Positions 1,265 through 12,360 of a stretch of 42,543 nt of DNA are shown in pieces. The translations under genes and the position numbers were made by a program. How positions within the stretch are numbered: the first letter of the stretch is position 1; each line of letters opens with the position of its first letter. The stretch spans positions 1-42,543 of the forward strand of contig CANBTI010000015.1 in NCBI GenBank assembly GCA_947372355.1, written 5' to 3'. The notes under the pieces are model-generated. The model saw only the letters and a program-made list of their open reading frames with translations. It had not been told where the DNA came from and ran no database searches. The DNA comes from Bdellovibrionales bacterium. GTDB taxonomy: Bacteria; Bdellovibrionota; UBA1018; CAIMNF01.

Positions 1265-1500
1265 TACATTGACATATCGGCAATTTTTTACCTCGTCTTA
1301 ATTCTATTTTGGAAGCGTCAAACTCATGACCAATATTCCAATGATTAGCGATCAAATCATGCTTCTAATTTTTTTGTAAATCCTCACGAAATTAAATTGA
1401 TGATCCTAATTTCGAAATAAATCGACGCATTTTTGACGTCTTCTTTGGTAGCCCAAACTTCTTCTTACACAAAGTAAAGGGAAGCTGATCAAGATTTCAC

Positions 1501-3705
1501 ATGTTTTTACCGATAAGAATCAAAGTGATACCGTTCAAAGTACACCAGTATCTAAGCCTTTTTCTAGTCATCGTTCATGTGTGCACTTTTGCGCGCGCGG
1601 AGCAACCATCCCCCAACCAATCTTTGTCTGATCAATACTGGAAAGAAATTCAAGCGGCGAAACTCCACGTCGCCAATCCGGAAGCAATCTCGGGTTTTGA
1701 TCGCTGGAGACTCGTCTACACGATTCCGTCGAAAGATGTTTCAGAACAAATCGGACGAGTCCTCTTCGTTGAAAAATCTCAATCCTCGGTGGTAAGTTCT
1801 TACGCTAATAAGATCACTCAAAATAACCTTGGATTTAAAAATGATTTAAAGACTGGCTTAGGCCTTAACTTAGTTGAAATAGGCATGAGACGCCGATGTA
1901 AGGATTTCGTTTCACCCGCTGAATTGGAAAAATGCAAAGAAGCAGCTTCGCAACTGATTAAGATTCTCGACATCAAAAATGCAGGAGATGGTTTTAGCGG
2001 CTTACCATTTTTTTCTCGCGTACAAGAAAGATTCTCCCAACCGGCGTTTCAAGAACAAACTTTGGCTTTCAATGCCGAGATTCAAAAACTCATCGATCAG
2101 TTTACCCAGAATCCTAAATTTCATCTCACCGAAGACGTGTACACTGTGGCGCTGAAAGCATGCAAAGGGGACTCTCGCAAAGCAGTCGAGATGCTTGGCA
2201 TCTTAACGAGTCGGGATGTCTTGGTCACTCGATACTTGAAACATCTCACGGCCGATAATAAAGAATTCATCAACGCATTCGGAAATCTCTCTCTTCGCAT
2301 TCGCCTCGTAGCCGATTTGGATAGAAAAGCCAGAAACTCAATTGATGACGTTTTCAGTTTTACCAATAAATTTTCAACGCAGACCGAAAAGAATTACTAC
2401 TACTGGAGTGCCGCCCTCGCCAGCCAGGAGTTGAAAGATCTCGGCTATTCGGATCAACTCATTAGCAAGCTTGCAGCTGAGCTTCCTCGTCAATACAAGG
2501 CATATCGTTATTTGGAATTTAAGGGCCCACTTCAAAGTAAGGAATGGCTCAAGGAATTTAAACGGGATGCCGTTAGTACGATGAACATTTCGGCCCATGG
2601 AGCTGAAGTCGGCACCAAAAGCGCAAGCACACCAGCAGTCTCTGACGACAAACGTTTCGAGTCCTTCATCTCCGCTCTCAAAGAAAAGAAAAATACCGAG
2701 AGCCTCTCCAAGATCCGTGCTCTCAGAACAATGACGGCGGCAAAAGGAACCACTACCCCATTCATTCAGATCCTGTATTACGACATGGCTCATTCCAAAA
2801 TTGGTCTCTCGCACATGAAGATGGTGGTCGATGGCAAAGTGTACGAAATTCACCGATCCACAAACTCCGATGGAGGCTACCTTCGCGATCGTGAGCTCGT
2901 TCAGGGGCTCACGGATTCAAAAGTCGGTGTGCTCCCTACTGGTATTTTGGAACTTCCAGCAACCGAAGAGCAAAAAGCAAAGATGATTCAATTCCTGCAA
3001 TCGGAATCAACAGCCGACATGCAGTATTCATACTTTAATAAACTACTGAATCGAGATGCCTACAACTGCGGGGGCATCATGTACGATGCTCTGAAAGAAG
3101 GCGGATACGCTTTACCTGAGCTCCCTCGAAGTAAGACGCTGGCTTCCCAAGTATTTAACGAAATCACAAAACGCCTTCCTGAGGGTCGGGTGATTGGAAA
3201 CACCACTGAAACCGCAAAAAGTCTGCTCCACGCAAACTTTAGCAAGACTACAATCACTGGTTTTAATCCAGCAGTGAACCGTGAATTCAGCCCTCTTGTT
3301 GGTCATGATTTATTACAAGCGGAGCAAGGATTCAGCGACACTACCCCATTATTTTCAAATCCTAGAAAAGTATTTGGAAAATTTTCCAAGAGTTTTTCGA
3401 ACACCGGAAATCTTGCAGAAGAGTATTTACCCAAAAATGGCAAGACGATGAAACTCATCACCCTCATTGTGCCGCAGGAAGAATTTGAAATGACCTTACT
3501 TTCAAAAAATGCAAGTGAGTTCAGTAAAAACATTTTGTTTGTGAATAAAGACAAAAAAAACAAGTGCGTTTCTTCATTCATCCCGATGAAGTTGGACAAT
3601 ACAACGAATGGATCAAAAAATTTCCGAAAGACGAAACCCAGTGGCTTGCCACTCCCAGCTCGTCTGCTCGCAGTTTATATGTCGTCGACAGCGAGAAGAA
3701 GATGA
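1501..3705 (+). CDS. Large exported protein, permuted papain/NlpC-like domain (first frame of a split gene)
   Basis: The zero frame encodes 734 residues. A signal peptide ends near ARA-EQ (residue ~33), and a long helical region covers about 40-390. A domain with a His-then-Cys arrangement follows: SHMKMVVDGKVYEIH has His438, and AYNCGGIMYDAL has Cys523 at the head of a helix. This order is that of circularly permuted papain-fold enzymes (LRAT/NlpC-P60/DUF4105-like), whose known members are amidases, peptidases or acyltransferases. The substrate cannot be inferred. The last ~48 residues after the A8 run at 3553-3560 look like nonsense (basic, ending SSTARRR), whereas the -1 frame continues with a recognisable domain. 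The true product is therefore probably a ~1067-residue fusion with the 3564-4703 frame, unless the gene is broken. It looks more GC-rich than the small genes around it. Confidence 0.8.
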   Translation: MFLPIRIKVIPFKVHQYLSLFLVIVHVCTFARAEQPSPNQSLSDQYWKEIQAAKLHVANPEAISGFDRWRLVYTIPSKDVSEQIGRVLFVEKSQSSVVSSYANKITQNNLGFKNDLKTGLGLNLVEIGMRRRCKDFVSPAELEKCKEAASQLIKILDIKNAGDGFSGLPFFSRVQERFSQPAFQEQTLAFNAEIQKLIDQFTQNPKFHLTEDVYTVALKACKGDSRKAVEMLGILTSRDVLVTRYLKHLTADNKEFINAFGNLSLRIRLVADLDRKARNSIDDVFSFTNKFSTQTEKNYYYWSAALASQELKDLGYSDQLISKLAAELPRQYKAYRYLEFKGPLQSKEWLKEFKRDAVSTMNISAHGAEVGTKSASTPAVSDDKRFESFISALKEKKNTESLSKIRALRTMTAAKGTTTPFIQILYYDMAHSKIGLSHMKMVVDGKVYEIHRSTNSDGGYLRDRELVQGLTDSKVGVLPTGILELPATEEQKAKMIQFLQSESTADMQYSYFNKLLNRDAYNCGGIMYDALKEGGYALPELPRSKTLASQVFNEITKRLPEGRVIGNTTETAKSLLHANFSKTTITGFNPAVNREFSPLVGHDLLQAEQGFSDTTPLFSNPRKVFGKFSKSFSNTGNLAEEYLPKNGKTMKLITLIVPQEEFEMTLLSKNASEFSKNILFVNKDKKNKCVSSFIPMKLDNTTNGSKNFRKTKPSGLPLPARLLAVYMSSTARRR
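3553..3561 (+). other. Candidate -1 frameshift or slippage site, A AAA AAC
   Basis: Eight adenines (3553-3560) followed by C place an exact in-frame A AAA AAC heptamer at 3555-3561, the X XXY YYZ form used for -1 ribosomal frameshifting. A shift here moves translation from the 1501 frame into the 3564-4703 frame after residue 687 and restores a continuous protein. An A8 run also permits transcriptional slippage. It is equally a hot spot for indel mutation and for sequencing error. I did not see a clear downstream stimulatory hairpin. Confidence 0.5.
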
Positions 3706-4703
3706 AGCCCTTCATCGTTAAAACCTCATTGACTGAAAAAATGGGTGGAGCGAGCCGGGTGATAACGGCGGAACAAACCGAGCGGGCAATTGTGATCAAC
3801 GATGTTGTGGATCAAGTTTATCAAGATTCCAATGGCAAACTGCCTCTCTCTGGAAAAACCTGGCAGTTCTTTAAAGAACCAGCGTCAGCACTGCCTAAAA
3901 ACGGTGGTGGCATGATCTTACGCGAATTTAAAGACGCAGTTCAAAACGATATCGTATTACCCTGGTATTCACTCATTTCTGAACGACCAGCATCTGAACA
4001 TTGGATCGACGAACTTTATCGTTACTCGGGACACAAGAACATGAAAGAGTTTATCTGGAATGATCTCGCTAAACCAGTGATGGAAATGCATTCAGAGCTC
4101 GCCCTCAAAAACGGAATCACCACCGAACTTCACCAACAAAACTTGATGATTGTGATAGATAAAGACACTAAAAAAGTAAAAGGCCTCATGCTCCGAGACA
4201 TGGATGGGAACTGGGTAGATCACTCTCTCCGAGTGAATTACCTCCATAAGGCATCAACCGGAACTGGCTCACTCTATGAAGACGCAAAAACTCTGAACTA
4301 CGTTTGGGCTCAGGATAACCAATTCAACAGTTACGCTGAAATCATCCGGGAAAGAAGTTTTGGAAATATATTCAAATACGCAATGCCGATCGACGATGTT
4401 CAGTGGATCCAAAAAAAATCGGATCAGTTTTATGTAGAGGAGTTCAACAAGACTTTTCCAAAATACAAGGTCGAGGATGTTACCAAGCTCAAGGAACGTT
4501 GGCAGCAAATCCATGCCGACTTCACCACCGATGCAGAGAGTTTAGTTTACAATCAGATCAAGGCTGAAAAATATAAGCCAATAAGTGTCATGGGTAAGAC
4601 CTTACAAAATTATCGAGATGAGATGGTCACTAGAAAGCTTTCCGGTGCGTTATCCAATCCTGCCGACTGCCTCAGTGTTTTCCTAAAACAGATTTTTAAA
4701 TAA
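3564..4703 (+). CDS. IucA/IucC (NIS siderophore synthetase)-like domain, second frame of the split gene
   Basis: This is an open frame of 379 residues, -1 relative to the 1501 frame and overlapping it by 142 bp. It has no independent Shine-Dalgarno, and its nominal GTG falls directly after the A8 run. Features in order match the IucA/IucC fold: FFIHPDEVGQY (like the family's HPWQ segment), KPFIVKTSLTEKMGGASR (like the LSL..TN.LRT strand), GGMILREFKD (like ILRE), then LKNGITTELHQQN and LMLRDMDGN (like the family's HGQN and LRDxxG nucleotide-binding region). Known members condense citrate or dicarboxylates with amines or alcohols using ATP in the cytoplasm. Here the domain seems attached to a signal peptide, so it may be non-catalytic, delivered to a host or prey cell, or part of a broken gene. 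The family match is by eye. Confidence 0.7.
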   Translation: MRFFIHPDEVGQYNEWIKKFPKDETQWLATPSSSARSLYVVDSEKKMKPFIVKTSLTEKMGGASRVITAEQTERAIVINDVVDQVYQDSNGKLPLSGKTWQFFKEPASALPKNGGGMILREFKDAVQNDIVLPWYSLISERPASEHWIDELYRYSGHKNMKEFIWNDLAKPVMEMHSELALKNGITTELHQQNLMIVIDKDTKKVKGLMLRDMDGNWVDHSLRVNYLHKASTGTGSLYEDAKTLNYVWAQDNQFNSYAEIIRERSFGNIFKYAMPIDDVQWIQKKSDQFYVEEFNKTFPKYKVEDVTKLKERWQQIHADFTTDAESLVYNQIKAEKYKPISVMGKTLQNYRDEMVTRKLSGALSNPADCLSVFLKQIFK

Positions 4704-4750
4704 AAATCCGAACTTCAAAATAATTTCCCATTCTTTCAGTTCATAAAAAA

Positions 4751-4833
4751 ATGATTATTTCTGAACCATGTTTCGAAATTCTTTATTTAACCGCGCAAAA
4801 CTGAATCTCAAAAGTCTTGCGCGGAAATTTTTT
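4751..4833. repeat. 80-bp repeat, copy A; + strand terminator-like hairpin
   Basis: This is the leftmost clear copy of the repeat (ATGATT..TTTCTGAACC..TTTCGAAATTCTTT..CCGCGCAAAACT-loop-AGTTTTGCGCGG). Here CCGCGCAAAACT (4791-4802) pairs with AGTCTTGCGCGG (4813-4824), with one mismatch, followed by AAATTTTTT. On the + strand that is a plausible Rho-independent terminator 88 nt after the stop of the 1501-4703 gene. No minus-strand gene starts next to this copy. Confidence 0.7.
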
Positions 4834-4861
4834 ACATTAACAAACACCAATTGAATGAAAC

Positions 4862-5008
4862 TTAGTCTATTTGAGACATGCCACCGCAAACTAAGATCTT
4901 ATTTCTAGCTCCATAAGACCAATCTGAGATGATTGCAACTTGTTTGCCTTTGATAAAAAGAGTTTCTCCTGATTCACAATCCAATGTTATCGAGTCAGAA
5001 CTCAATCG
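4862..5008 (-). pseudogene. Remnant C-terminus of a small secreted protein
   Basis: This minus-strand frame of 48 codons ends at a TAA (4862-4864). It reads like a real protein tail: SITLDCESGETLFIKG, then VAIISDWSYGARNK, then ILVCGGMSQID, with two cysteines. It has no start codon of its own, since an in-frame stop lies at 5009-5011 just upstream. The mature-domain style (beta-rich, paired Cys) resembles the intact small secreted proteins nearby. The first residues and the sequence upstream are duplicated at 5770-5833, so the piece looks like debris from duplication and deletion. Confidence 0.55.
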
Positions 5009-5045
5009 TTATTTCTTAACTTTAAAAACCTAATCACACTCATTC
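4981..5045. repeat. 62-bp direct repeat, copy 1
   Basis: The segment starting CCAATGTTATCGA and running through ACTCAATCGTTATTT and CTAATC to CACTCATTCA recurs in the same orientation at 5770-5833, with about seven differences over ~62 aligned bases. Confidence 0.75.
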
Positions 5046-5152
5046 AATTGTGAAACTACATTACTTAGGATCAGAGTACAGTTGTACACCTTACTCGTGA
5101 CTCGATAAATTTAACTTCGTGTATTTACACTTTTGAACAACCATCGGGTAAA

Positions 5153-5191
5153 TAATGAACAGGATATTCCAAAGGAGTATCCTGTTCATTA
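5153..5191. terminator. 14-bp perfect stem-loop downstream of the 134-aa gene
   Basis: TAATGAACAGGATA (5153-5166) pairs perfectly with TATCCTGTTCATTA (5178-5191) across an 11-nt loop. It lies 38 nt after the stop of the minus-strand gene at 5229. The T-tract on the minus strand is weak (TTTACCC a few bases later), so it may be a terminator, an mRNA 3'-end stabiliser or a protein site. Confidence 0.5.
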
Positions 5192-5228
5192 AAGCTTTGA
5201 TTTTATATTTTGTTGAGTTGAATTAAAA

Positions 5229-5633
5229 TCAGGGATTGTTATAGCAAGAAAACCTCAAATAAGAACCGCCGTCACTTCCTTGCACAGCGATTACTGCTTT
5301 GAACTTATTTTTCTGATAAAAATCTTTTTCAAGTAAAATTTTACTAATAACCAGATCGTTATTCCATTTATCGGTCATTTTAAGCTCACCCATCACAGAA
5401 ATAAAATTCGCATAGGTTGCACTTGGACGGTAAGCAACTTGCTCAAGTATTTTAGATGTAAAATACACATTTCCAACTTTTTCTTTATAAACAAAGTCTT
5501 TAATAGAGGTTGGTGAAGTAATGGTTGCTGTAAAAACAACTGCATCTTGTGTGTATGAGTTAGTACAATAAATAGTATTCGCACTTGCAGAAAGCGAACT
5601 TAATAAAGTTAATCCAATAATAAAAATTTTCAT
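5229..5633 (-). CDS. Small secreted protein, 134 aa
   Basis: No family is recognised. MKIFIIGLTLLSSLSASANT is a clean Sec signal peptide with likely cleavage after ASA. The mature part (~115 residues) reads as beta-strand-rich, alternating polar and hydrophobic residues, with one Cys near each end (TIYCTNS and RFSCYNNP). These could form a disulfide closing a small beta-barrel or sandwich. GAGAG precedes the ATG by 6 nt. The gene belongs to the minus-strand series of small exported proteins between 5229 and 12284. Its 5' region lacks the 80-bp repeat carried by many of the others, and a strong stem-loop follows the stop. Confidence 0.85.
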   Translation of the reverse strand: MKIFIIGLTLLSSLSASANTIYCTNSYTQDAVVFTATITSPTSIKDFVYKEKVGNVYFTSKILEQVAYRPSATYANFISVMGELKMTDKWNNDLVISKILLEKDFYQKNKFKAVIAVQGSDGGSYLRFSCYNNP

Positions 5634-5769
5634 AATTCTCTCACTTTATTTTTTAATAATTAAAAAATTTGTTTGCGGTTTCATATCAACGTCAACCAGT
5701 TGCGTCAAGTGATTTATATCGATTTTCAAATACCATTTTAACTTAATATCTTTTCGATTATTCCTTAGT

Positions 5770-5833
5770 CCAATGTTATCGATTCAATACTCAATCGTTA
5801 TTTTTTAACTTTAAGACCTAATCTCACTCATTC
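5770..5833. repeat. 62-bp direct repeat, copy 2
   Basis: This is the partner of 4981-5045. It begins 6 nt beyond the stop codon of the minus-strand gene at 5839. It carries a fragment of the frame that is longer in the remnant at 4862-5008 (minus-strand reading RLSIESITLD then stop). Confidence 0.75.
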
Positions 5834-5838
5834 ACTGG

Positions 5839-6168
5839 TTACTTAATTTCTGCACCAGAAAATTTCACACTTTCACCAGGATACCTGCTTCCGCTCGGAG
5901 ACATTGAAAAACTGGCGATGTCTAAATCAAGCTTGTATGACTCACCTTTAAATAGCTTCTCAGAAAGCACTGTAAATTTATCGAATAATTTTGGATCTGT
6001 TCTTTTTAAGCGAACGTAAAAGAAGGACCTTTCAGGACCAGTACTTGCGTGAAGTTTAAATTCCGTATCGTTTAAAGTATGCGAAACATCCATCACACTT
6101 ACATTTTCGAGCTTTGCCGCAGATGCCGAGCTTGCAAACCACAAGGCAATTATGAATAATTTTTTCAT
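5839..6168 (-). CDS. Small secreted protein, 109 aa, coupled to the isochorismatase-like gene
   Basis: No family is recognised. MKKLFIIALWFASSASAAK is a signal peptide cut near ASA. The ~90-residue mature protein has no cysteine, is rich in charged residues and alternating hydrophobics, and ends KFSGAEIK. The start codon overlaps the stop of the upstream isochorismatase-like gene by the ATGA arrangement (6165-6168), and AAGGA sits 7 nt before the ATG. The two are therefore almost certainly co-translated and may act in the same compartment. The pairing of an exported hydrolase with a tiny exported partner suggests a binding or regulatory role, but nothing in the sequence proves it. Confidence 0.85.
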   Translation of the reverse strand: MKKLFIIALWFASSASAAKLENVSVMDVSHTLNDTEFKLHASTGPERSFFYVRLKRTDPKLFDKFTVLSEKLFKGESYKLDLDIASFSMSPSGSRYPGESVKFSGAEIK

Positions 6169-7052
6169 TTTTTTCCTTCTAAAAAATCTATCGTTTTTAC
6201 GGAAAAATCTCGCATTTTCGTGCCGACAGTTGGAGTTTCACACGATTTTTTTAGGGCTTTTTTACTTGTTTCGGCCTTAGCAACAGCAGGCTTTAATCCT
6301 CTATGGATAGCAGGGGGTCCAAAGATATCACCCAATTTAGTTACTTCGATAAATTTGGGATTCGCTCGCATATCATTAAATTGATTCGTATAGGGATAGA
6401 TAAAGTCAGGATAGTTAAAATCTGCAATTCCATTATCATATGCGATTACTTTATAATTATGCCTGAGCGCACCATAGATGCTTGCATATACACACGCGCC
6501 TCCGTTGGCACCAGTAATAATGAGAGTATGAATTCCCCTACCTTTTAAAAATTTATCTAGTTGAGATGACGAGCTATTTCCATCGTCGAACATTCCCTCT
6601 GTATCTTTTATGAATACTGACGTATGAACATAGCCTTTTGTCGCATTCTTTAGTCTAGTGTCGATTAACCCGAAATTGTCAAAAGCGATCAAGATGATAG
6701 AAGCATCTGCCTTCTTAGCGGCTTGAATTGCCGAAAGTTGGGTCGCAATAATTTGTTTAACTTTTTTTTGATTTTCAGGCTTTTCTTGGTTGCCATCACG
6801 GGTTACAAACTCCGGTTGCATATCTATAATCACTAACGCAGGTTTATTGGATTGAGCAAAACTTGTCGTCTGAATTAACGATAGGAACAGAAAGAAAAAT
6901 CTCAAAAATAGATAAAACGAGGAAAACTTCTTCATTCCCCTAGCGTTTCGGCATTGCGGGATGAATTCTAAAGTTTTTGCGCCTCCTTTTTCTGCATTTT
7001 GCCTGACTGGATTTTGACGAAAATATCGAGTGTGAGCTGTTATTTTGAGCAC
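6165..7052 (-). CDS. Exported isochorismatase-family cysteine hydrolase
   Basis: The core domain from ~residue 72 matches the isochorismatase-like fold: PALVIIDMQPEF carries the catalytic Asp, and IITGANGGACVYASIYGAL carries the cis-peptide region and nucleophilic Cys. Family members are nicotinamidases, isochorismatases and ureidoacrylate hydrolases, and the substrate here is unknown. There is a start conflict. The GTG at 7052 has an excellent AGGGGGAA six bases upstream. However, the next ATG (6935) opens MKKFSSFYLFLRFFF and a signal peptide ending SFA-Q, which would be buried 39 residues in if 7052 is used. The ATG at 6935 has only AGGGG one or two bases away. Export is inferred from that hydrophobic segment. 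Extra C-terminal residues (~55, Lys-rich) follow the domain. Confidence 0.8.
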   Translation of the reverse strand: MLKITAHTRYFRQNPVRQNAEKGGAKTLEFIPQCRNARGMKKFSSFYLFLRFFFLFLSLIQTTSFAQSNKPALVIIDMQPEFVTRDGNQEKPENQKKVKQIIATQLSAIQAAKKADASIILIAFDNFGLIDTRLKNATKGYVHTSVFIKDTEGMFDDGNSSSSQLDKFLKGRGIHTLIITGANGGACVYASIYGALRHNYKVIAYDNGIADFNYPDFIYPYTNQFNDMRANPKFIEVTKLGDIFGPPAIHRGLKPAVAKAETSKKALKKSCETPTVGTKMRDFSVKTIDFLEGKK

Positions 7053-7393
7053 CGTATCTTCCCCCTTTGTCTAACCACTTGAAGTAGTTATTAAACAAAT
7101 GATTCATTTCCGAACCGTTTATCGAAATTCTTTGTTAATCCGCGCAAAACTGAATTTCAAAAATCTCGCGCATCATCTTTTCTGATTGGATAAATTTATT
7201 CTATTTAAAATCGAAGTAGGAAAAAAATTATCCAATTTTACTTTTCAATTAATTAAACTATTTTAATTTAGTGTTTTAAGCATACAGTGCTTATGAACAA
7301 CGATTATTTTCCTAATCAGGTTTCAAAGTCCACTATTTTACTAAGTTTTAATTGAACATTTCCCACTCTTTCATTAACTACAAATTTTTCGAA
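7053..7393. other. Intergenic stretch: repeat copy B and an inverted repeat
   Basis: It holds repeat copy B (7099-7172) and a 9-bp inverted repeat, ATTGGATAA (7185-7193) with TTATCCAAT (7228-7236), around a 34-nt spacer. I see no open frame of note; the rest is plain AT-rich sequence. Confidence 0.5.
7099..7172. repeat. 80-bp repeat, copy B
   Basis: It runs ATGATTCATTTCCGAACCG, then ATCGAAATTCTTTGTTAATC, then CGCGCAAAACTGAATTTC, with a weakened right arm (AATCTCGCGC). It ends 47 nt upstream of the GTG at 7052. Confidence 0.8.
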
Positions 7394-7828
7394 TTAATGC
7401 ATGTGTAGCTTTAAGCACTTAAGATTTGAAATTTCATTTACAGAATGAGGATCGCTGGTGTCAGCCCACCCGTCGTCTGAAGTTCCAAGATAAGCCAATA
7501 CTTTAGATTTATTTTTTAAGGGTGTTTTTGTATAAAACGCTCGACGATATCCAAATTTATTGCATCTATATAATGATAAATCGTTTTTAAAGAAAATTGG
7601 CGACTCTTCTACCCCATTTGTTTCGAAATGATCGACCTTAAATCCACCATCTGAGTCATCTTTCCCTAACATACACTCTCTAGTTTCATAGGTTGAGTTA
7701 GTGTAAAGATTCCGAACTTCACAGAGTTCAATCATATTTTTTGCCACATTAAAGTTTCTGTGTATTGAAGCTTCAGCAGTAGCAGAAATAGCCCCTATAG
7801 CCAATAACGCGATCATTAAATTTTTCAT
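7394..7828 (-). CDS. Small secreted protein, 144 aa, four-cysteine
   Basis: No family is recognised. MKNLMIALLAIGAISATAEAS is a signal peptide with cleavage near TAEA. The mature part has four cysteines (ELCEV, RECMLG, YRCNKFG and LKCLKLHMH), an even number that fits two disulfides in an oxidising compartment. Several aromatic and charged segments suggest a compact beta-rich fold. The Shine-Dalgarno is CGGAGATATT immediately before the ATG, the same spacing as in the other small secreted genes. The 5' flank (7829-7974) has no clear repeat copy. Confidence 0.85.
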   Translation of the reverse strand: MKNLMIALLAIGAISATAEASIHRNFNVAKNMIELCEVRNLYTNSTYETRECMLGKDDSDGGFKVDHFETNGVEESPIFFKNDLSLYRCNKFGYRRAFYTKTPLKNKSKVLAYLGTSDDGWADTSDPHSVNEISNLKCLKLHMH

Positions 7829-7974
7829 AATATCTCCGTAATCAATTTAATTAATAATGATCTAATCATTTTCTAATTCATCTGAATTTGCCTAAGCAAA
7901 AGTTGAAAATGATCCCAACGTTAAAAATTATATAATTATATTCTTAATACTGATTCCTCGAGCTTTTTGCTCAG

Positions 7975-8406
7975 TTATTTAACTTCTTTCAAGTTACATA
8001 CAACAGTTATATTTTCACCATTAAGCTCAACTTGTGAGCGAACATTAATTTCAGAATCACCTAAAGAGTATTCCGTATATTCAGATCCACCTTTTGCCGA
8101 TCGCACTATTCCAATCGTTTTCATATCTTCAGAGATTGCGGCCTGAGACTTTTGAAAACCATCGCTATGAGTACGAGATATAACACCCAAATCATTGGGT
8201 GTTTGTTTTGAGTTAAATTTAAACTTTTCACCATTGATCGTAATCGAAGAACCAGTAACTTTTAGGCTTAAGTTGTAATTTTCAGTTGTAGTTGGAGAAA
8301 CGTCACTAGTCGTAACACAAATTCCAGCGAATTTTCCTTTATACAGTGTGCTTGCATATGTTGATGTCGATGCTACAGTAAGTGCGATTGCGATAAATAG
8401 TTTCAT
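7975..8406 (-). CDS. Small secreted protein, 143 aa
   Basis: No family is recognised. I take the ATG at 8406, which gives MKLFIAIALTVASTSTYAS, a standard signal peptide, and is preceded by GGAG at proper spacing (TGGAGTATTT). A longer frame to 8454 would put 16 polar residues before it. The mature protein is beta-rich and has two cysteines (GICVTTS and VVCNLKEV). The signal peptide resembles those of the genes at 9079 and 11207 (STSTYA versus STSAFA). Two perfect palindromes (8441-8455 and 8466-8483) lie in its upstream region and may be its operators. Confidence 0.85.
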   Translation of the reverse strand: MKLFIAIALTVASTSTYASTLYKGKFAGICVTTSDVSPTTTENYNLSLKVTGSSITINGEKFKFNSKQTPNDLGVISRTHSDGFQKSQAAISEDMKTIGIVRSAKGGSEYTEYSLGDSEINVRSQVELNGENITVVCNLKEVK

Positions 8407-8440
8407 AAATACTCCATTGCCCTGTGGGCGTTTGTTGTTT

Positions 8441-8507
8441 GATGGGTAACCCATCGTTTAATAATCGATTAGTTAACTAATCGTGTTTCGAAATTTTTTG
8501 TAAATTT
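8441..8507. promoter_or_regulatory. Two palindromes next to a partial repeat copy
   Basis: GATGGGTAACCCATC (8441-8455) and CGATTAGTTAACTAATCG (8466-8483) are perfect inverted repeats separated by 10 nt. The second runs into GTGTTTCGAAATTTTTTG, a fragment of the 80-bp repeat. They sit 35-77 nt before the ATG at 8406 and just after the stop of the 8513 gene. They could be operators, or a terminator for the latter. Confidence 0.5.
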
Positions 8508-8512
8508 AGTGG

Positions 8513-8974
8513 CTAGATATCTAAGAGCAGCAGAACTCCAGCTGCAGCTGCTTCATTTTCGGAGCAATTTCCTTCCACACTGCCAACGACTTTTCCCATT
8601 TGAATTGTCGAGCGGATGATACCATTCTCTACACTGCCAATGAGTTGCCCCATTCGGATCGGAGTATTGTCATTAGTGGGAGCCGAGCGAATCATGCCGT
8701 TTTCTACACTGCCAACGAGTTGCCCCATTCGGATCGGAGTATTGTCATTAGTGGGAGCCAAGCGAATCATGCCATCTTCCACACTACCAACAAGTTTTCT
8801 CATTCTGATCGGGGTATAATCATTGGAGGGAGTCAAATGGATAAGGCCATCTTCGACGCTACCAACGATTTGTCCCATTTGAACTGAGTCATCAAAATTT
8901 GCAACTCTGATTAGGCATTCGCCAGCATGTGCTGTTGAGATAAGAAATGTGCATGTAAACAATAAAATCTTCAT
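8513..8974 (-). CDS. Secreted tandem-repeat protein with 25-residue units
   Basis: From the ATG at 8974 (AAGGAG eight bases upstream) the protein opens with the signal peptide MKILLFTCTFLISTAHAGEC. The frame extends to 9007, but that adds a poor N-terminus. The mature part is a tandem array with period exactly 25 residues (75 bp). Each unit reads (I/V)xMxx(L/I)VGSVE(D/N)G(M/L)I followed by a linker ending in NDxTP. There are four units and a shorter fifth, in which the spacing is 18 residues. The chain ends with NCSEN and a very hydrophobic AAAAGVLLLLDI tail. Two adjacent units are almost identical at the DNA level, which indicates recent tandem duplication. The repeat spacing would fit a beta-solenoid or stacked hairpins. 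I know no matching family. Confidence 0.85.
   Translation of the reverse strand: MKILLFTCTFLISTAHAGECLIRVANFDDSVQMGQIVGSVEDGLIHLTPSNDYTPIRMRKLVGSVEDGMIRLAPTNDNTPIRMGQLVGSVENGMIRSAPTNDNTPIRMGQLIGSVENGIIRSTIQMGKVVGSVEGNCSENEAAAAGVLLLLDI
8597..8878 (-). repeat. 75-bp coding tandem repeat
   Basis: The conserved Met codon of each unit (CAT on the + strand) falls at 8597, 8651, 8726, 8801 and 8876, so three intervals are 75 bp and the terminal one is 54 bp. The units at 8651 and 8726 differ at very few positions and the outer ones more. Confidence 0.9.
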
Positions 8975-9013
8975 CCAATTCTCCTTAGCATCAATGAAGA
9001 TGCTCATTTATCT

Positions 9014-9057
9014 AATGATTCATTTCTAAACCGTGCAAAACCAAATTTCAGAAGTTT
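9014..9057. repeat. 80-bp repeat, copy C (internally deleted)
   Basis: AATGATTCATTTCTAAACCG joins directly to TGCAAAACCAAATTTCAGAAGTTT, with the middle ~26 bp (TTTCGAAATTC..TTAATCC) missing. It lies 40 nt upstream of the ATG at 8974. Confidence 0.7.
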
Positions 9058-9078
9058 AGTATGTGAAATATTTCAAAC

Positions 9079-9438
9079 TTATTTGGCCTTAAACACTTTG
9101 AGTTTTTCTCCGTTAACAAAAGTGAGAATCCCCGAAAAAGGAGAGTCCATTTCAAAAGTCTTAGGAGCATAACCAAGATTTTGACCTGTACGTACTACTA
9201 AATCTTTTTCTTTTTCACAAATCATTAAGCCATCTGCTTTGACGTTACAATTAGCACCTCTGGTTTTAGTTATTGTCGAACCATCTTTAGTCTCTGCATC
9301 GACTAACAAGTACGCATTAAATTCTTGTGAATAGCTTGGAATGATATTTAGTTCTAGATTCATTTCTTTCGCGACGAAAGTTTCAGCAAAAGCAGACGTT
9401 GAAACAACTAGTGTAATTGCGATGATCATTGTTTTCAT
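9079..9438 (-). CDS. Small secreted protein, 119 aa
   Basis: No family is recognised. MKTMIIAITLVVSTSAFAETF is a textbook signal peptide, and its STSAFAE end is identical to that of the protein at 11207 although the mature parts are unrelated. About 100 mature residues follow, with two close cysteines (ANCNVKADGLMICEK), probably one small disulfide loop. Strand-like segments end in NGEKLKVFKAK. The start has the shared AACGGAGAATTT leader, and repeat copy D begins 22 nt upstream. Confidence 0.87.
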   Translation of the reverse strand: MKTMIIAITLVVSTSAFAETFVAKEMNLELNIIPSYSQEFNAYLLVDAETKDGSTITKTRGANCNVKADGLMICEKEKDLVVRTGQNLGYAPKTFEMDSPFSGILTFVNGEKLKVFKAK

Positions 9439-9459
9439 AAATTCTCCGTTTGTTATTCT

Positions 9460-9540
9460 AATGATTCATTTCTGAACCGTTTATCGAAATTCTTTGTTAA
9501 TCCGCGCAAAACTGAATTTCAAAAGTTTTGCTCGGAAATT
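9460..9540. repeat. 80-bp repeat, copy D
   Basis: This is a near-consensus copy: AATGATTCATTTCTGAACCG, ATCGAAATTCTTTGTTAATC, then CCGCGCAAAACT pairing with AGTTTTGCTCGG (one mismatch) around the loop GAATTTCAAA. It begins 22 nt before the ATG at 9438. Confidence 0.9.
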
Positions 9541-9632
9541 TGTCACTTAAAATAGTACCGATTGAATCGATGATCAGTGGTATAGAGTGAGCCCTTCTCA
9601 TCAGATAATTGAATTAACGTTCAGTTTTTTCA

Positions 9633-10088
9633 TTAAGGACATTTCGTTGGAATGAATTTCACTTCCCAGCTGATGACTTTATTTTTCTCGACATATACAT
9701 CCAGTACTTTAGTGCGGCATACCTTAAATGAGTTCCCAGCAAATTCAATTTCTCCATTGTTGATTTCTTTAAGTTCAATTTCGAAATTACCAATTTGACT
9801 ATAAACAAATCCATCGATTCTTGTGCACAAATCATTTAAGTCCTCACTATCGTAGGCATCTGCATAATCGTGAAAACCAAAGCGAAGACTTCGTCCATTA
9901 TTTGTAACTATTGGAAGGTCTCCATGTACGATCATATTGCCAGGATGACGTTTGAATGGAGTGCATCTAAGCTCAGCCTCTGCAATTACCTTTACACTGT
10001 TCTTATCAATCCTAACAACCTCGGCTTGAACGAATGAACTCATCATCAATCCTGTAAGCGTACAAATTAAGGCAATCATTTTTTTCAT
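9633..10088 (-). CDS. Small secreted protein, 151 aa
   Basis: No family is recognised. MKKMIALICTLTGLMMSSFVQAE is the signal peptide. The mature part has four cysteines (LRCTPFK, DLCTRID, KVCRTKV and PTKCP) and strand-rich segments such as NFEIELKEINNGEIEFAG, so a disulfide-stabilised beta fold is likely. AACGGAGAATTT precedes the ATG, and repeat copy E starts 22 nt upstream, the same geometry as at 9438, 11096 and 11524. Confidence 0.87.
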   Translation of the reverse strand: MKKMIALICTLTGLMMSSFVQAEVVRIDKNSVKVIAEAELRCTPFKRHPGNMIVHGDLPIVTNNGRSLRFGFHDYADAYDSEDLNDLCTRIDGFVYSQIGNFEIELKEINNGEIEFAGNSFKVCRTKVLDVYVEKNKVISWEVKFIPTKCP

Positions 10089-10109
10089 AAATTCTCCGTT
10101 ATTTTATCT

Positions 10110-10182
10110 AATGATTCATTTCTGAACCGTGTTTCGAAATTCTTAGTTAATCCACGCAAAACTGAATTTCAAAATTCTGCGC
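10110..10182. repeat. 80-bp repeat, copy E
   Basis: AATGATTCATTTCTGAACCG, GTTTCGAAATTCTTAGTTAA, then CACGCAAAACTGAATTTC with a shortened right arm (AATTCTGCGC). It begins 22 nt before the ATG at 10088. Confidence 0.88.
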
Positions 10183-10240
10183 TTATTTAATAAATATTAT
10201 GGTTCATTTCAAGCGAGCAATCGTTGCTCGGAAAATCAAT

Positions 10241-10498
10241 TTAGATTTTGGCACAAATCTTAGCCACACCCAAACCATCCTCATCGATAGATAAGTCATA
10301 TTTTTTTGAATCAAGTAGAAAACAAGTAGAAACTTTTTTCTCATCATCAATGGATTTAACATTGGCGCATAATACTGCTCTAACTTCAGGGCTAGTAACA
10401 TTAGCCATATCCTTTAAGCATTTAAATGCCGCTCCAGTGTCCTGAGCAAACACGGTTTTACTTACTAATAGCAAACTTAAAACAATTACATTTTTCAT
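10241..10498 (-). CDS. Small secreted protein, 85 aa, four-cysteine
   Basis: No family is recognised. MKNVIVLSLLLVSKTVFAQDT is the signal peptide, leaving a mature chain of only ~65 residues with four cysteines (FKCLKD, VLCANV, STCFLL and KICAKI). That is the size and cysteine density of a small two-disulfide protein. AAGGAAAATTT precedes the ATG, a variant of the leader seen in the neighbours. No 80-bp repeat lies in the 43 nt between it and the next gene upstream, so it is probably transcribed together with the 10542-11096 gene. Confidence 0.82.
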   Translation of the reverse strand: MKNVIVLSLLLVSKTVFAQDTGAAFKCLKDMANVTSPEVRAVLCANVKSIDDEKKVSTCFLLDSKKYDLSIDEDGLGVAKICAKI

Positions 10499-10541
10499 AA
10501 ATTTTCCTTTGTTAGTGAATTAAACTAATCAAACTTTCATA

Positions 10542-11096
10542 TTATTGGGGCAATACTTCTTCCAGAAGATCAGCAATTTCTAAAACATCGGAGTTTGATT
10601 TTGTATAGATTTTGATGGATTTAAGACCTTCTTCATCTAAAACGTCAGCTTGAGCGAATTGATGAATTGGATTTAATTTATCAAACCACATTGGTACAGT
10701 GCCAACAGCCGCTCCTGTTCCGTAGACCATCACACCTGCTGCAATAGAATCACTGGCAACTCCTGTTGCGAAAACCATTCCAAGGCCGTACACTGCCCCA
10801 ACATAGCCACCAACTAATCCAAAGACAACTACACCACCGGTTTTCCAACGCGCTTCGATCAGTTCGTCATGCTTAATTTCATTAAGTTCTGATTGGGAGT
10901 AGCCTGAAGCTCTTCCAATTCTTTCACATATTTCTGGGATTTTTTTATTGTCACAAAATCTGAAGCTGATTTTCCCATTAGTTTTAAAAGAAGTTTTGAT
11001 CGAATACCTTGAACCTTTGATGTCTTTCGTAGAGGCGTTGGCGCTAGGTACTGTCAACAAGTGGGCAAGGGCTAAAAATGCGCTTAGAAATTTCAT
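10542..11096 (-). CDS. Exported protein with glycine-rich membrane segments, 184 aa
   Basis: No family is recognised. MKFLSAFLALAHLLTVPSANAST is the signal peptide. A polar domain with two cysteines (RFCDNKKIPEICERIG) follows. Residues ~90-135 are very hydrophobic and rich in Gly and Ala (GGVVVFGLVGGYVGAVYGLG, then AAGVMVYGTGAAVG), a pattern of glycine-zipper membrane insertion seen in small pore-forming or membrane-associated proteins. The tail is acidic and helical (LEIADLLEEVLPQ). It shares the AACGGAGAATTT leader, with repeat copy F 22 nt upstream. A membrane-active role is only inference. Confidence 0.82.
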   Translation of the reverse strand: MKFLSAFLALAHLLTVPSANASTKDIKGSRYSIKTSFKTNGKISFRFCDNKKIPEICERIGRASGYSQSELNEIKHDELIEARWKTGGVVVFGLVGGYVGAVYGLGMVFATGVASDSIAAGVMVYGTGAAVGTVPMWFDKLNPIHQFAQADVLDEEGLKSIKIYTKSNSDVLEIADLLEEVLPQ

Positions 11097-11117
11097 AAAT
11101 TCTCCGTTAGTTTGTTT

Positions 11118-11196
11118 AATGATTCATTTCTGAACCGTGTTTCGAAATTCTTTTTTAATCCGAGCAAAACTGAATTTCAGAAGTTTTGCGTGGAAT
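11118..11196. repeat. 80-bp repeat, copy F
   Basis: AATGATTCATTTCTGAACCG, GTTTCGAAATTCTTTTTTAA, then CCGAGCAAAACT with AGTTTTGCGTGG. The stem keeps nine contiguous pairs next to the loop or its closing region. It begins 22 nt before the ATG at 11096 and ends 11 nt past the stop of the next gene. Confidence 0.88.
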
Positions 11197-11206
11197 ATTT
11201 AATTTG

Positions 11207-11524
11207 TTAAAGTGAGCTAGAAATCATCTGGTGAATGTCACCTTGGTTTTTATGAGAAATTTTATATTCAATTATTGCTCTCTTGATTCCATTGAATATA
11301 TATGGATTATTCGCTTGATCGCGAATTGTTGTGTACTCACTGATTAAGCATTCTCTTTCCACAACGTTTAATATTTTTTGTTCAATTTGATCTTTAGTTA
11401 AAGTCGCATTTCCCGCTTCCAATGCCAATGTCGTTGCATCATATGCACATGATTCAAGTGATTGTGATTCTGCAAAAGCAGATGTAGAGCCTAATAACAG
11501 CAGTGTGATTATAAATAGTTTCAT
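11207..11524 (-). CDS. Small secreted protein, 105 aa, helical
   Basis: No family is recognised. MKLFIITLLLLGSTSAFAES is the signal peptide, closely matching that of the gene at 9079 (both end STSAFAE). The mature part differs in kind from its beta-rich neighbours: it reads as mainly alpha-helical (YDATTLALEAG, DQIEQKILNVVER, GIKRAIIEYKI) with two cysteines (ESCAYD and RECLIS). The AACGGAGAATTT leader and repeat copy G, 20 nt upstream, are present. Confidence 0.86.
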   Translation of the reverse strand: MKLFIITLLLLGSTSAFAESQSLESCAYDATTLALEAGNATLTKDQIEQKILNVVERECLISEYTTIRDQANNPYIFNGIKRAIIEYKISHKNQGDIHQMISSSL

Positions 11525-11543
11525 AAATTCTCCGTTTAATTTA

Positions 11544-11622
11544 AATGATTCATTTTTTGAACCATGTTTCGAAATTCTTAGTTAATCCACACAAAACTGA
11601 ATTTCTGAAGTTTTGCACGGAA
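11544..11622. repeat. 80-bp repeat, copy G
   Basis: AATGATTCATTTTTTGAACC, GTTTCGAAATTCTTAGTTAA, then CCACACAAAACT, loop GAATTTCTGA, and AGTTTTGCACGG. The outer stem has three mismatches here. It begins 20 nt before the ATG at 11524. Confidence 0.88.
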
Positions 11623-11675: not shown

Positions 11676-12284
11676 TTAGGGGATACTTGTTGATTTACTA
11701 GGCTCATATCTTGGAGCATCTAAATTATTGCAAAGAATACCTTTAGGAAGTGATTCATCTACATATACATTTTGGCCTAAATTATTATCGTAACCTAACT
11801 TAATCATCTTATTCGTAAATGGAAGTATGGTATGAATGGTGGTTACTTTAAATCCATCATTCCAAATTCTCTCAGCCCGCAATATCCCAACATCAAAAGC
11901 ACCAGATTTAGAATCTTCACAGTAAAACTCAAGATCGGCTACTTCCATTTTCGTACTACCTGTTTGAGAGTAAAAAACCTGATCAAATTTAAGAAGATCG
12001 TATCCAGCGCCGTCACTGGCAAGTACTTTTGTTTCGGAGCCAGTCGATACCACTGTTTTACAAGTTGAGTATTGCGTATCTTTTTTTGCCTTATATTCAA
12101 TCCAGTTGCCGGCGTATTGAAATCGCAATGAATAACCGCTCTCACTGTCATAACAACTTATTATATTAGCATTCGGATCATAAGCATGCGCAAAGGTAGC
12201 GGCGCCCATATCAAACATTAATCCAATGACTAATAATTCTGCGATTTTAATTTTTAATTTTTTACTGTTTTTTAGTTTCATCAT
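11676..12284 (-). CDS. Exported protein, ~202 aa, function unknown
   Basis: No family is recognised. ATGs at 12284 and 12281 are both possible. I prefer 12284 because the operator-like block at 12332-12360 then lies at the same distance as in front of the gene at 1-108. The frame formally reaches a TTG at 12302. The N-terminus is basic (MMKLKNSKKLKIK), followed by a hydrophobic core to AHA-YDP, a long but plausible signal peptide. The mature part has four cysteines (ISCYDS, STCKTV, EFYCEDS and ILCNNL) and strand-rich sequence in the style of a lipocalin or beta-sandwich protein. It is the first gene of the minus-strand secreted series and differs from the others in its upstream region. Confidence 0.8.
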   Translation of the reverse strand: MMKLKNSKKLKIKIAELLVIGLMFDMGAATFAHAYDPNANIISCYDSESGYSLRFQYAGNWIEYKAKKDTQYSTCKTVVSTGSETKVLASDGAGYDLLKFDQVFYSQTGSTKMEVADLEFYCEDSKSGAFDVGILRAERIWNDGFKVTTIHTILPFTNKMIKLGYDNNLGQNVYVDESLPKGILCNNLDAPRYEPSKSTSIP

Positions 12285-12326
12285 GAAATGAACTATACAC
12301 AACGATTGTGTATTAATAAACTATAT

Positions 12327-12360
12327 TTAAACACAGTGATTAAATAGTGATTACAGATGT
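12327..12360. promoter_or_regulatory. Operator-like cluster, copy 2 of the shared 29-bp block
   Basis: TTAAACACAGTGATTAA (12327-12343) is a near-palindrome with two differences from 151-167. GTGATTA repeats at an 11-bp interval, and 12332-12360 matches 156-184 at 26 of 29 bases. It lies 48 nt upstream of the ATG at 12284. Confidence 0.5.

Follow-up and report, generated by a model that had tools for sequence, protein, structure and literature searches.

Conserved pseudoknot elements, probably leader RNAs, upstream of unrelated exported-protein genes in Bdellovibrionales

The preQ1, SAM-II, fluoride and guanidine-III riboswitches are compact H-type pseudoknots, and the ompA leader provides another kind of 5′-leader, one that stabilises its mRNA. 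In Bdellovibrio a structured RNA has already been described, merRNA, a cyclic diguanylate (c-di-GMP) riboswitch RNA with a proposed role in the control of the predator lifestyle; it is a single abundant RNA and is not followed by a conserved gene (PMC3627812). Here we consider a stretch of 42,543 nucleotides from a Bdellovibrionales bacterium (contig CANBTI010000015.1 of assembly GCA_947372355.1; 'the window' means this whole stretch), where copies of an element of ~79 nt stand before genes for small secreted proteins. We put at about 80% the probability that each copy encodes a structured RNA belonging to the 5′ leader of a gene for an exported protein, the RNA being made of a hairpin (P1), of a pseudoknot helix between its loop and a stretch located 3′ of it (P2) and of a second hairpin (P3).

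The original prediction had noticed an ~80-bp repeat between positions 4751 and 11622, and this holds: the minus strand of the window carries six full copies and a partial one (~9013-9066). When the segment 9433-9537 was used as a BLAST query against the genome of origin, five other full copies were recovered with E-values from 1e-34 to 2e-20, which excludes chance, while a search with one copy uncovered five more strong places beyond the window, two in contig C48 and one each in C77, C85 and C36. BLAST also found five places in G003, another genome of the genus. A covariance model that holds the pairs of P1 and P3 only, R1, was then run over 58 genomes, that of origin included, and added eight strong divergent copies. 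G016, from a different family of the same order, carries four of them and G014, again from a different family, carries one, so that five of the eight lie in other families; of the remaining three, G003 contributes two, beyond those already known there, and G005 one. With the window copy as query, BLAST had missed G014 and G016 altogether and had matched no more than 17 nt in G005. The models carried the letters of P2 as unpaired columns and never its pairing; in the eight later-found copies, 55 of the 56 P2 cells can pair, against a maximum of 36 with slid partners.

The proposed fold is simple. P1 is a hairpin of 8-12 bp, P2 a helix of 7 bp and P3 a hairpin of 6 bp, closed in most copies by a GNRA loop; loop lengths of 3, 0 and 9 nt, together with a P1 of up to 12 bp and a P2 of 7 bp, make it an H-type pseudoknot, the crossing loop of which is A-rich. 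In the best-scoring copy the partner GAATTTC stands 21 nt beyond the GAAATTC of the P1 loop. Other copies have GAAATCC with GGATTTC, or GAAGTCC with GGACTTC, in P2, and a GATTAG-GAAA-CTAATC variant of P3, and since the two strands vary together these changes are compensatory. The structure was proposed from 16 aligned copies, in which 92.7% of the cells are paired and covariation reaches 0.342, against 0.224 ± 0.015 in shuffled alignments (none of 500 attains it) and at most 0.098 with slid partners. In an alignment of 24 copies (A4, made by MAFFT without structure), covariation is 0.420 against 0.228 ± 0.014 in shuffles, with a maximum of 0.133 for slid partners, and changes on both sides occur in 15 of 25 pairs against 11.1 ± 1.6 (a value attained by 8 of 500 shuffles). 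For P2 alone, 98.2% of the cells are paired, covariation is 0.290 against 0.184 ± 0.018, and 14 cells are changed on both sides against 5.2 ± 2.2. A tree-based null, consisting of 120 simulated alignments and about 2,900 column pairs, places pairs of the structure at ranks 1, 2, 5, 8 and 10, with all three helices represented. Taken as a whole, the set of pairs shows compensatory change, no single pair being significant alone. Finally, when two frayed outer pairs are left aside, G-U is found in 51 cells and A-C in 9 (55 and 14 with these pairs included), which points to the gene-sense strand as the folding strand, as expected of an RNA.

These features bear directly on the idea that the inverted repeats are transcription-factor sites or part of a promoter, the regulon being transcriptional. 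Inverted repeats and a conserved element 20-28 nt before ATG would suit an operator; transcription might start downstream of the element, and AT-rich motifs such as TAAAGTAAAAGAT stand just upstream of some copies. Binding sites, however, keep sequence rather than complementarity, whereas the sequence of P1 varies at most positions with its complementarity kept, the interlocked pairings of P1 and P2 covary, and one strand shows a preference for G-U over A-C. We regard an operator as improbable.

The element has a fixed position and orientation upstream of start codons. Among the 24 strong copies, 19 are followed by a start codon 20-42 nt after P3, and for 15 of these 19 the distance is 20-28 nt; one of the 19, L063:142, was read by eye at a contig end, and the start chosen for L064 is uncertain. 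The near-constant gap announced by the original prediction for the genes starting at 9438, 10088, 11096 and 11524 amounts to 24, 24, 24 and 22 nt from the end of the last hairpin. A crude signal-peptide rule is passed by 17 of the 19 downstream genes, and L063:2576 fails it, yet has a plain hydrophobic N-terminus. The repeat is therefore tied to secreted genes rather than spread regardless of them, since 19 of 24 strong copies directly precede a gene. This is hard to reconcile with a miniature mobile element, a non-coding transposable sequence that would lie upstream of genes by happenstance: copies without genes (window 4748, L073 and L077) and the location of L073 about 0.5 kb from a tyrosine recombinase gene would agree with it, but 19 of 24 copies share one orientation and a near-constant distance to start codons, and diverged copies in several families evolve by compensatory change. 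In this assessment, made without a search for target-site duplications, such an element appears scarcely credible.

Structured sites between small genes arrayed on the same strand, a patchy distribution and the scarcity of homologues in relatives also evoke an integron, in which attC-type folded DNA sites would separate mobile single-gene cassettes, their position before genes only reflecting the next cassette. The core boxes of attC read GTTRRRY and RYYYAAC, and a covarying pseudoknot is not known to be part of attC. In our 24 copies GTTRRRY is present near the 3′ end of three and RYYYAAC near the 5′ end of one, both being present in one. No integrase scored above the TIGR02249 cut-off in any of the five genomes, which are draft assemblies and each hold weaker tyrosine-recombinase matches. 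The near-constant spacing to the downstream start also contrasts with the distance from the upstream stop codon, which ranges from 4 to about 400 nt. There is a precedent for confusion between site and riboswitch, attI1 having once been mistaken for a riboswitch, as cautioned in a review which also has attC recombining on its bottom strand (PMC8876359); the strand favoured in our element, the gene-sense one, is the opposite of that folding strand. With core boxes, integrase and folding strand all failing, identity with attC was not supported, and we consider an integron very improbable.

A conservation profile over the nine gene-bearing copies of the genome of origin compares mean pairwise identity with that of shuffled sequences. 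In nucleotides it gives 78% against 57% in the element, 58% against 57% in the 80 nt before P1 and 39% against 39% in the spacer; in amino acids, the signal peptide reaches 40% against 19% and the mature part 20% against 19%. A constant 5′ part joined to divergent 3′ parts had been anticipated, as had the absence of resemblance between the mature parts, which show no significant sequence similarity. The 80 nt upstream being at chance identity, no shared promoter is seen there, though short gapped motifs could escape such a profile. In this upstream region a stretch resembling CCCTAATCTTTAG...TTAAAGCAAAAGAT stands ~45 nt before P1 in four loci of G016 (L067, L073, L077 and L081) and partly in L058 of the genome of origin, possibly a promoter; another conserved and separate stretch, AGGTCAACCCAGATATGCTGCGTTGAAA..., is common to three copies of L062 and L063 in G003, ~80 nt upstream of P1.

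A common ribosome-binding stretch and similar signal peptides were likewise part of the initial description. Indeed, AACGGAGAATTT is present in all four genes (seven occurrences in the genome, five of them beside an element) and two signal peptides end in STSAFAE. Both traits are probably in part a matter of genome style, for the very same AACGGAGAATTT and a signal peptide also occur in a gene of contig C19 whose 160 nt of upstream sequence show no element. The signal peptides of element genes are 40% alike, against 29% for 16 hand-picked genes without the element (label permutation, P 0.009), and this leans somewhat towards the earlier model of a cassette comprising repeat and signal peptide. 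Because a conserved 5′ module precedes unrelated exported proteins at several loci and in several genomes, a shared control element is likely, and to this extent the initial view stands; its cassette is better read as a pseudoknotted leader RNA, and the 'diversifying' role then assigned to the system finds no support, no donor set or exchange having been found.

The repeat recurs in four other genomes. Among the mature parts of 20 downstream proteins, a single pair of 190 is related (both from G003, E about 5e-6), leaving 189 without significant relation. The genes examined share no family, and there is no ligand candidate. The Pfam scans, which omitted seven downstream proteins (L055:5319, L056, L062, L063:2576, L063:1483, L064 and L067), gave nothing above the curated cut-offs for the 10 window proteins of the first scan; elsewhere they gave the isochorismatase-family protein of the window, a sub-threshold Lcl_C match and one TPR/transglutaminase-like protein in G003, and other matches below cut-off. 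Relatives were searched with 21 proteins as one joined query, a loose first look in which weak homologues may be lost, and three of the 21 had matches outside their genome of origin: 11207 in G004 (47%), 5839 in G015 (42%) and 10542 in G029 (26%). G004 belongs to the same genus, and there the homologue of 11207, which adjoins a gene read by eye as groEL, has a similar ribosome-binding stretch, AAAGGAGAATTT, and no element was found before it (best model score 10.8 bits), so that leader and gene are separable. In G015 the homologue of 5839 keeps, by eye, an isochorismatase-like neighbour, as in the 6165/5839 gene pair of the window.

These data also speak to a scenario in which an ancestral leader and its gene were copied together locally, the coding parts then diverging in place while the leader remained under selection. 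Clusters of small same-strand genes, the somewhat greater likeness of element-gene signal peptides and the related pair in G003 agree with it, and some genes might share a fold: single-sequence AlphaFold models of two window proteins (9079-9438 and 11207-11524), with a mean predicted local distance difference test score of 37 and 60, are too poor for fold comparison. Against it stand the 189 unrelated pairs, the homologue without a detectable leader, and two copies 98% identical over 65 nt, one before the isochorismatase-family gene and one before an unrelated small protein. As a general account we hold it rather unlikely. It concerns origin, however, and may well explain some copies, being compatible with the leader-RNA reading.

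Several observations weigh against a leader RNA and have to be set beside those that favour it. Kinship of sequences can beat shuffles without any structure, slid controls being the better guard; in P2, neither the pairs changed on both sides (2) nor the further pair types (8) exceed shuffles, and its covariation depends on two pairs. In the tree-based test no single pair has E <0.05 among the about 2,900 column pairs, the best value being 0.075. The two outer pairs of P1 fail to form in 13 and 14 of the 24 copies, and a G-G mismatch lies inside P1 in four related copies (L068, L069, L086 and L089). Transcription of the element with its gene is something we infer, indirectly, from the 51 G-U against 9 A-C cells on the sense strand. 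Three of the 24 copies (window 4748, L073 and L077) lack a signal-peptide gene within 170 nt, and in two further copies such a gene lies 86-165 nt away, L067 having a signal-peptide start at ~86 nt and window 7097 the exported isochorismatase-family protein at 165 nt. The downstream genes examined make no ligand, protein partner or shared pathway evident. Lastly, the element has a patchy distribution, being present in 3 of the 12 genus genomes and in 5 of the 58 class genomes. As an observation apart, the G-G of P1 (columns 11/28 of A4) takes the place of A-U or G-U and is perhaps a conserved non-canonical pair.

At an E-value of 0.01, the model R2 finds the element in five genomes (G000, G003, G005, G014 and G016), out of 55 in the order and 58 in the class; four of the nine genus genomes without it are >95% complete. 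When 290 genomes sampled evenly across the phylum were scanned, the sole further match, in G274 (37.9 bits), was rejected by eye, the pseudoknot strands being missing. A degenerate pattern gave four matches in genome_contigs and one in viral_contigs, R2 matching the viral one only, at 18.3 bits; nothing credible was found in named species genomes (GTDB 220) or viral contigs with this exact pattern, which allows no mismatch and for which records near the window were possibly left out. In a plasmid collection, a 24-nt match in two Bacillus records was taken as chance, and a phage collection gave no match. Rfam 15, interrogated with E up to 10, had no match near gathering score for the loci scanned, namely the window copies, L067, L068, L069 and L086, and the literature, in the parts that our searches reached, gave no description of this RNA. 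With its unusual targets, the element is most likely a new family of cis-acting leader RNAs.

How would such a leader work? Judging from its anatomy, the RNA would be transcribed at the start of the mRNA for the exported protein, together with the gene; P3 typically ends about 24 nt before the start codon, placing the fold just upstream of an exposed Shine-Dalgarno sequence, and the leader could then set translation initiation, through access of the 30S subunit to an upstream landing region, or mRNA stability. As the 20-28 nt between P3 and the start codon are too short, a transcription terminator can be discounted, and this lack of room, combined with a Shine-Dalgarno lying outside the conserved helices, makes attenuation and simple sequestration unlikely, leaving ribosome landing or mRNA stability. 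Sequestration had been considered, one predicted fold pairing UUCCG of P1 with CGGAG, and was dropped because the outer bases of P1 are not conserved. The shared part being a fold and not a recognisable promoter, co-regulation would be post-transcriptional, via a protein or a ligand: most likely, one shared factor acting in trans, protein or small ligand, would stabilise the pseudoknot and create a post-transcriptional regulon of unrelated exported proteins, which genes would enter or leave by gain or loss of the leader. If it is a leader RNA, we would look first to a protein-bound one, at odds somewhat short of even; a ligand-bound riboswitch is more doubtful, and a constitutive 5′ stabiliser doubtful to the same degree.

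Weak matches to R1 led to what is likely, though not certainly, a second class with the same architecture. It has the same order of parts with other letters, namely P1, a loop GUUCAC pairing with GUGAAC, and an A/U-rich P3. R3, a covariance model built from three copies, detected another seven in G003 (E <1e-3); a signal-peptide gene follows the match after 17-19 nt in three of these, after 93 nt in one and after 179 nt in one, two having none. On contig C67 of G003 (L086:1420-1579 and 2121-2278) each of two unrelated secreted genes is preceded by a tandem in which the second-class element comes first and a first-class element follows it directly, an arrangement resembling tandem riboswitches. 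The caution is due to covariation, which is no higher than in shuffles, the pseudoknot being mostly invariant, and to low R3 scores that cannot be trusted: R3 also matches copies of the first class and, on the wrong strand, palindromic P1 stems, with scores of 24-34 bits, and matches below about 35 bits were not counted as certain. By eye, a P1/P2 core without P3 precedes secreted genes at L057 (~5030-5072) and L059 (2645-2703); a descriptor scan gave 33.5 for the former, against 35.6 in shuffles, and did not find the latter.

This descriptor, a home-made one for the pseudoknot, recovers 23 of the 24 known copies. Over 29 places upstream of other secreted genes (two mis-indexed), it was clearly above 20 shuffles at L057 4477 only (48.2 vs 32.3), with a smaller rise at L058 5011 (35.8 vs 30.9), where the sequence is unlike the family; the partial window copy at 9013-9066 scored 32.1, not above its shuffles. 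Some weak model matches precede secreted-looking genes: L059 (9 nt before), L057 4378-4459 (18 nt), L087 and L084 of G016 (26 and 57 nt), and window 9013, 8463 and 1339 (about 38-75 nt). Others of similar or lower score are not so placed or were not taken further: window 7298 and 33174, L060, L058 5732, P1-stem matches on the wrong strand, L070 of G002 (within a coding frame), and L071, L074 and L078 of G022. Features of the window are collected in Table 1.

Table 1. Predicted elements, helices of the best-scoring copy and neighbouring genes in the window (all on the minus strand; A4, 24-copy alignment; ORF, open reading frame).
Feature	Position	Strand	Details
Predicted leader RNA element, 22 nt before gene 11207-11524	11543..11622	-	R1 88.3 bits, R2 83.2 bits
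Predicted leader RNA element, 24 nt before gene 10542-11096	11117..11195	-	R1 95.2 bits
Predicted leader RNA element, 24 nt before gene 9633-10088	10109..10186	-	R1 85.4 bits
Predicted leader RNA element, best-scoring, 24 nt before gene 9079-9438	9459..9537	-	R1 99.2 bits
Predicted leader RNA element, 165 nt before exported isochorismatase-family gene	7097..7175	-	R1 90.1 bits; 98% identity to 9459-9537 over 65 nt
Predicted leader RNA element, no gene after, faces convergent gene	4748..4826	-	R1 85.7 bits; no ORF of at least 55 aa within 170 nt
Probable degraded element (P1, part of P2) before gene 8513-8974	9013..9066	-	R1 23.3 bits; BLAST 9011-9034, E 2.4e-4
Possible diverged remnant (3′ part and P3 recognisable) before gene 7975-8406	8463..8526	-	R1 30.6, R2 32.4 bits
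Weak possible remnant (P3 region), no gene directly after	7298..7353	-	R1 24.6 bits
Weak possible diverged element, ~75 nt before ORF 443-1264	1339..1421	-	R2 33.3 bits, E 0.005
Proposed P1 5′ strand of element 9459-9537	9524..9535 (3′ strand 9502-9513)	-	A4 columns 3-14/25-36
Proposed P2 5′ strand, GAAATTC in P1 loop	9514..9520 (3′ strand GAATTTC 9486-9492)	-	A4 columns 18-24/46-52
Proposed P3 hairpin, GGUUCA-GAAA-UGAAUC, GNRA tetraloop	9463..9478	-	A4 columns 60-66/71-76
Secreted protein, 105 aa	11207..11524	-	Helical in low-confidence model; 47% homologue in G004
Secreted protein, 184 aa, glycine-rich segment	10542..11096	-	26% match in G029, no convincing element nearby
Secreted protein, 85 aa, no own element; perhaps second gene of 10542 unit	10241..10498	-	
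Secreted protein, 151 aa, 4 cysteines in mature part	9633..10088	-	
Secreted protein, 119 aa, beta-rich by inspection	9079..9438	-	Structure model uninformative
Secreted tandem-repeat protein, 25-aa repeats	8513..8974	-	
Secreted protein, start MKLFIAIALTVASTSTYAS	7975..8406	-	
Exported isochorismatase-family protein	6165..6935	-	Pfam PF00857, E 1.5e-15; then secreted gene 5839-6168

Some further observations were made on the way. The tandem-repeat protein owes its 25-aa repeats to 75-bp tandem repeats at 8609-8833, copies of which are 73-92% identical to the first. Two other repeats unlike the element are present in the window: one of 79 nt (106-184 and 12282-12360, 76% identity), which flanks the secreted-gene region on either side and contains TGATTAA/TTAGTGATTACA palindromes, and one of 46 nt (4980-5025 and 5769-5814, 91% identity), which lies next to the secreted genes 5229 and 5839. 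The ORF at 3564-4703 (379 aa) has an IucA/IucC-type domain match (E 1e-6, just over cut-off), and its start overlaps the ORF 1501-3705 in another frame, a possible frameshift or unusual gene pair. In G016, the locus L140:4250-5776 (C2:333249-334775) holds a copy of the element without a secreted gene, ~0.5 kb downstream of a tyrosine recombinase gene and adjoining, by eye, an apparent integrated conjugative or mobilizable element; the near-identical L077 is also without a gene, and use as an integration site is conceivable.

It is tempting to go one step further and to see in the element a portable RNA tag, two related classes of pseudoknot leaders, alone or in tandem, placing lineage-specific exported proteins under one post-transcriptional switch. 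We offer this tentatively, as one possibility and not the likeliest. Were it true, orphan genes would be recruited to a coordinated export programme by an RNA of ~80 nt, not by a promoter, in response to a common signal, a matter that bears on how orphan genes gain regulation soon after arising or arriving. If the leader works as proposed, it would define a regulon of exported proteins without assigned function that protein similarity searches would not group, and the RNA would be a handle for finding the governing signal. It would also constitute a compact pseudoknot family with natural variants, comprising sub-classes, a probable second class and tandems, which would ease mutational analysis.

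We can finally return to the systems to which the element comes closest. With integron cassette arrays it shares small-gene arrays with structured sites in between, but the fit fails at the core boxes, the integrase and the folding strand. Like merRNA, it would be a structured RNA, differing from it in sequence and structure class and in occurring as many cis copies before genes. In compact pseudoknot riboswitches, too, a short 5′-leader RNA forms a hairpin with a loop pseudoknot and an A-rich crossing loop near the ribosome-binding site; here, however, the ribosome-binding site is not visibly sequestered, there is no Rfam match, and the targets are unrelated exported proteins instead of the enzymes or transporters of one metabolite. 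As in the ompA leader, a folded 5′ end would stand upstream of an open Shine-Dalgarno sequence in the mRNA of an exported protein, and by this analogy our element might act as a stabiliser; unlike that leader, it forms a conserved pseudoknot family common to many unrelated genes.

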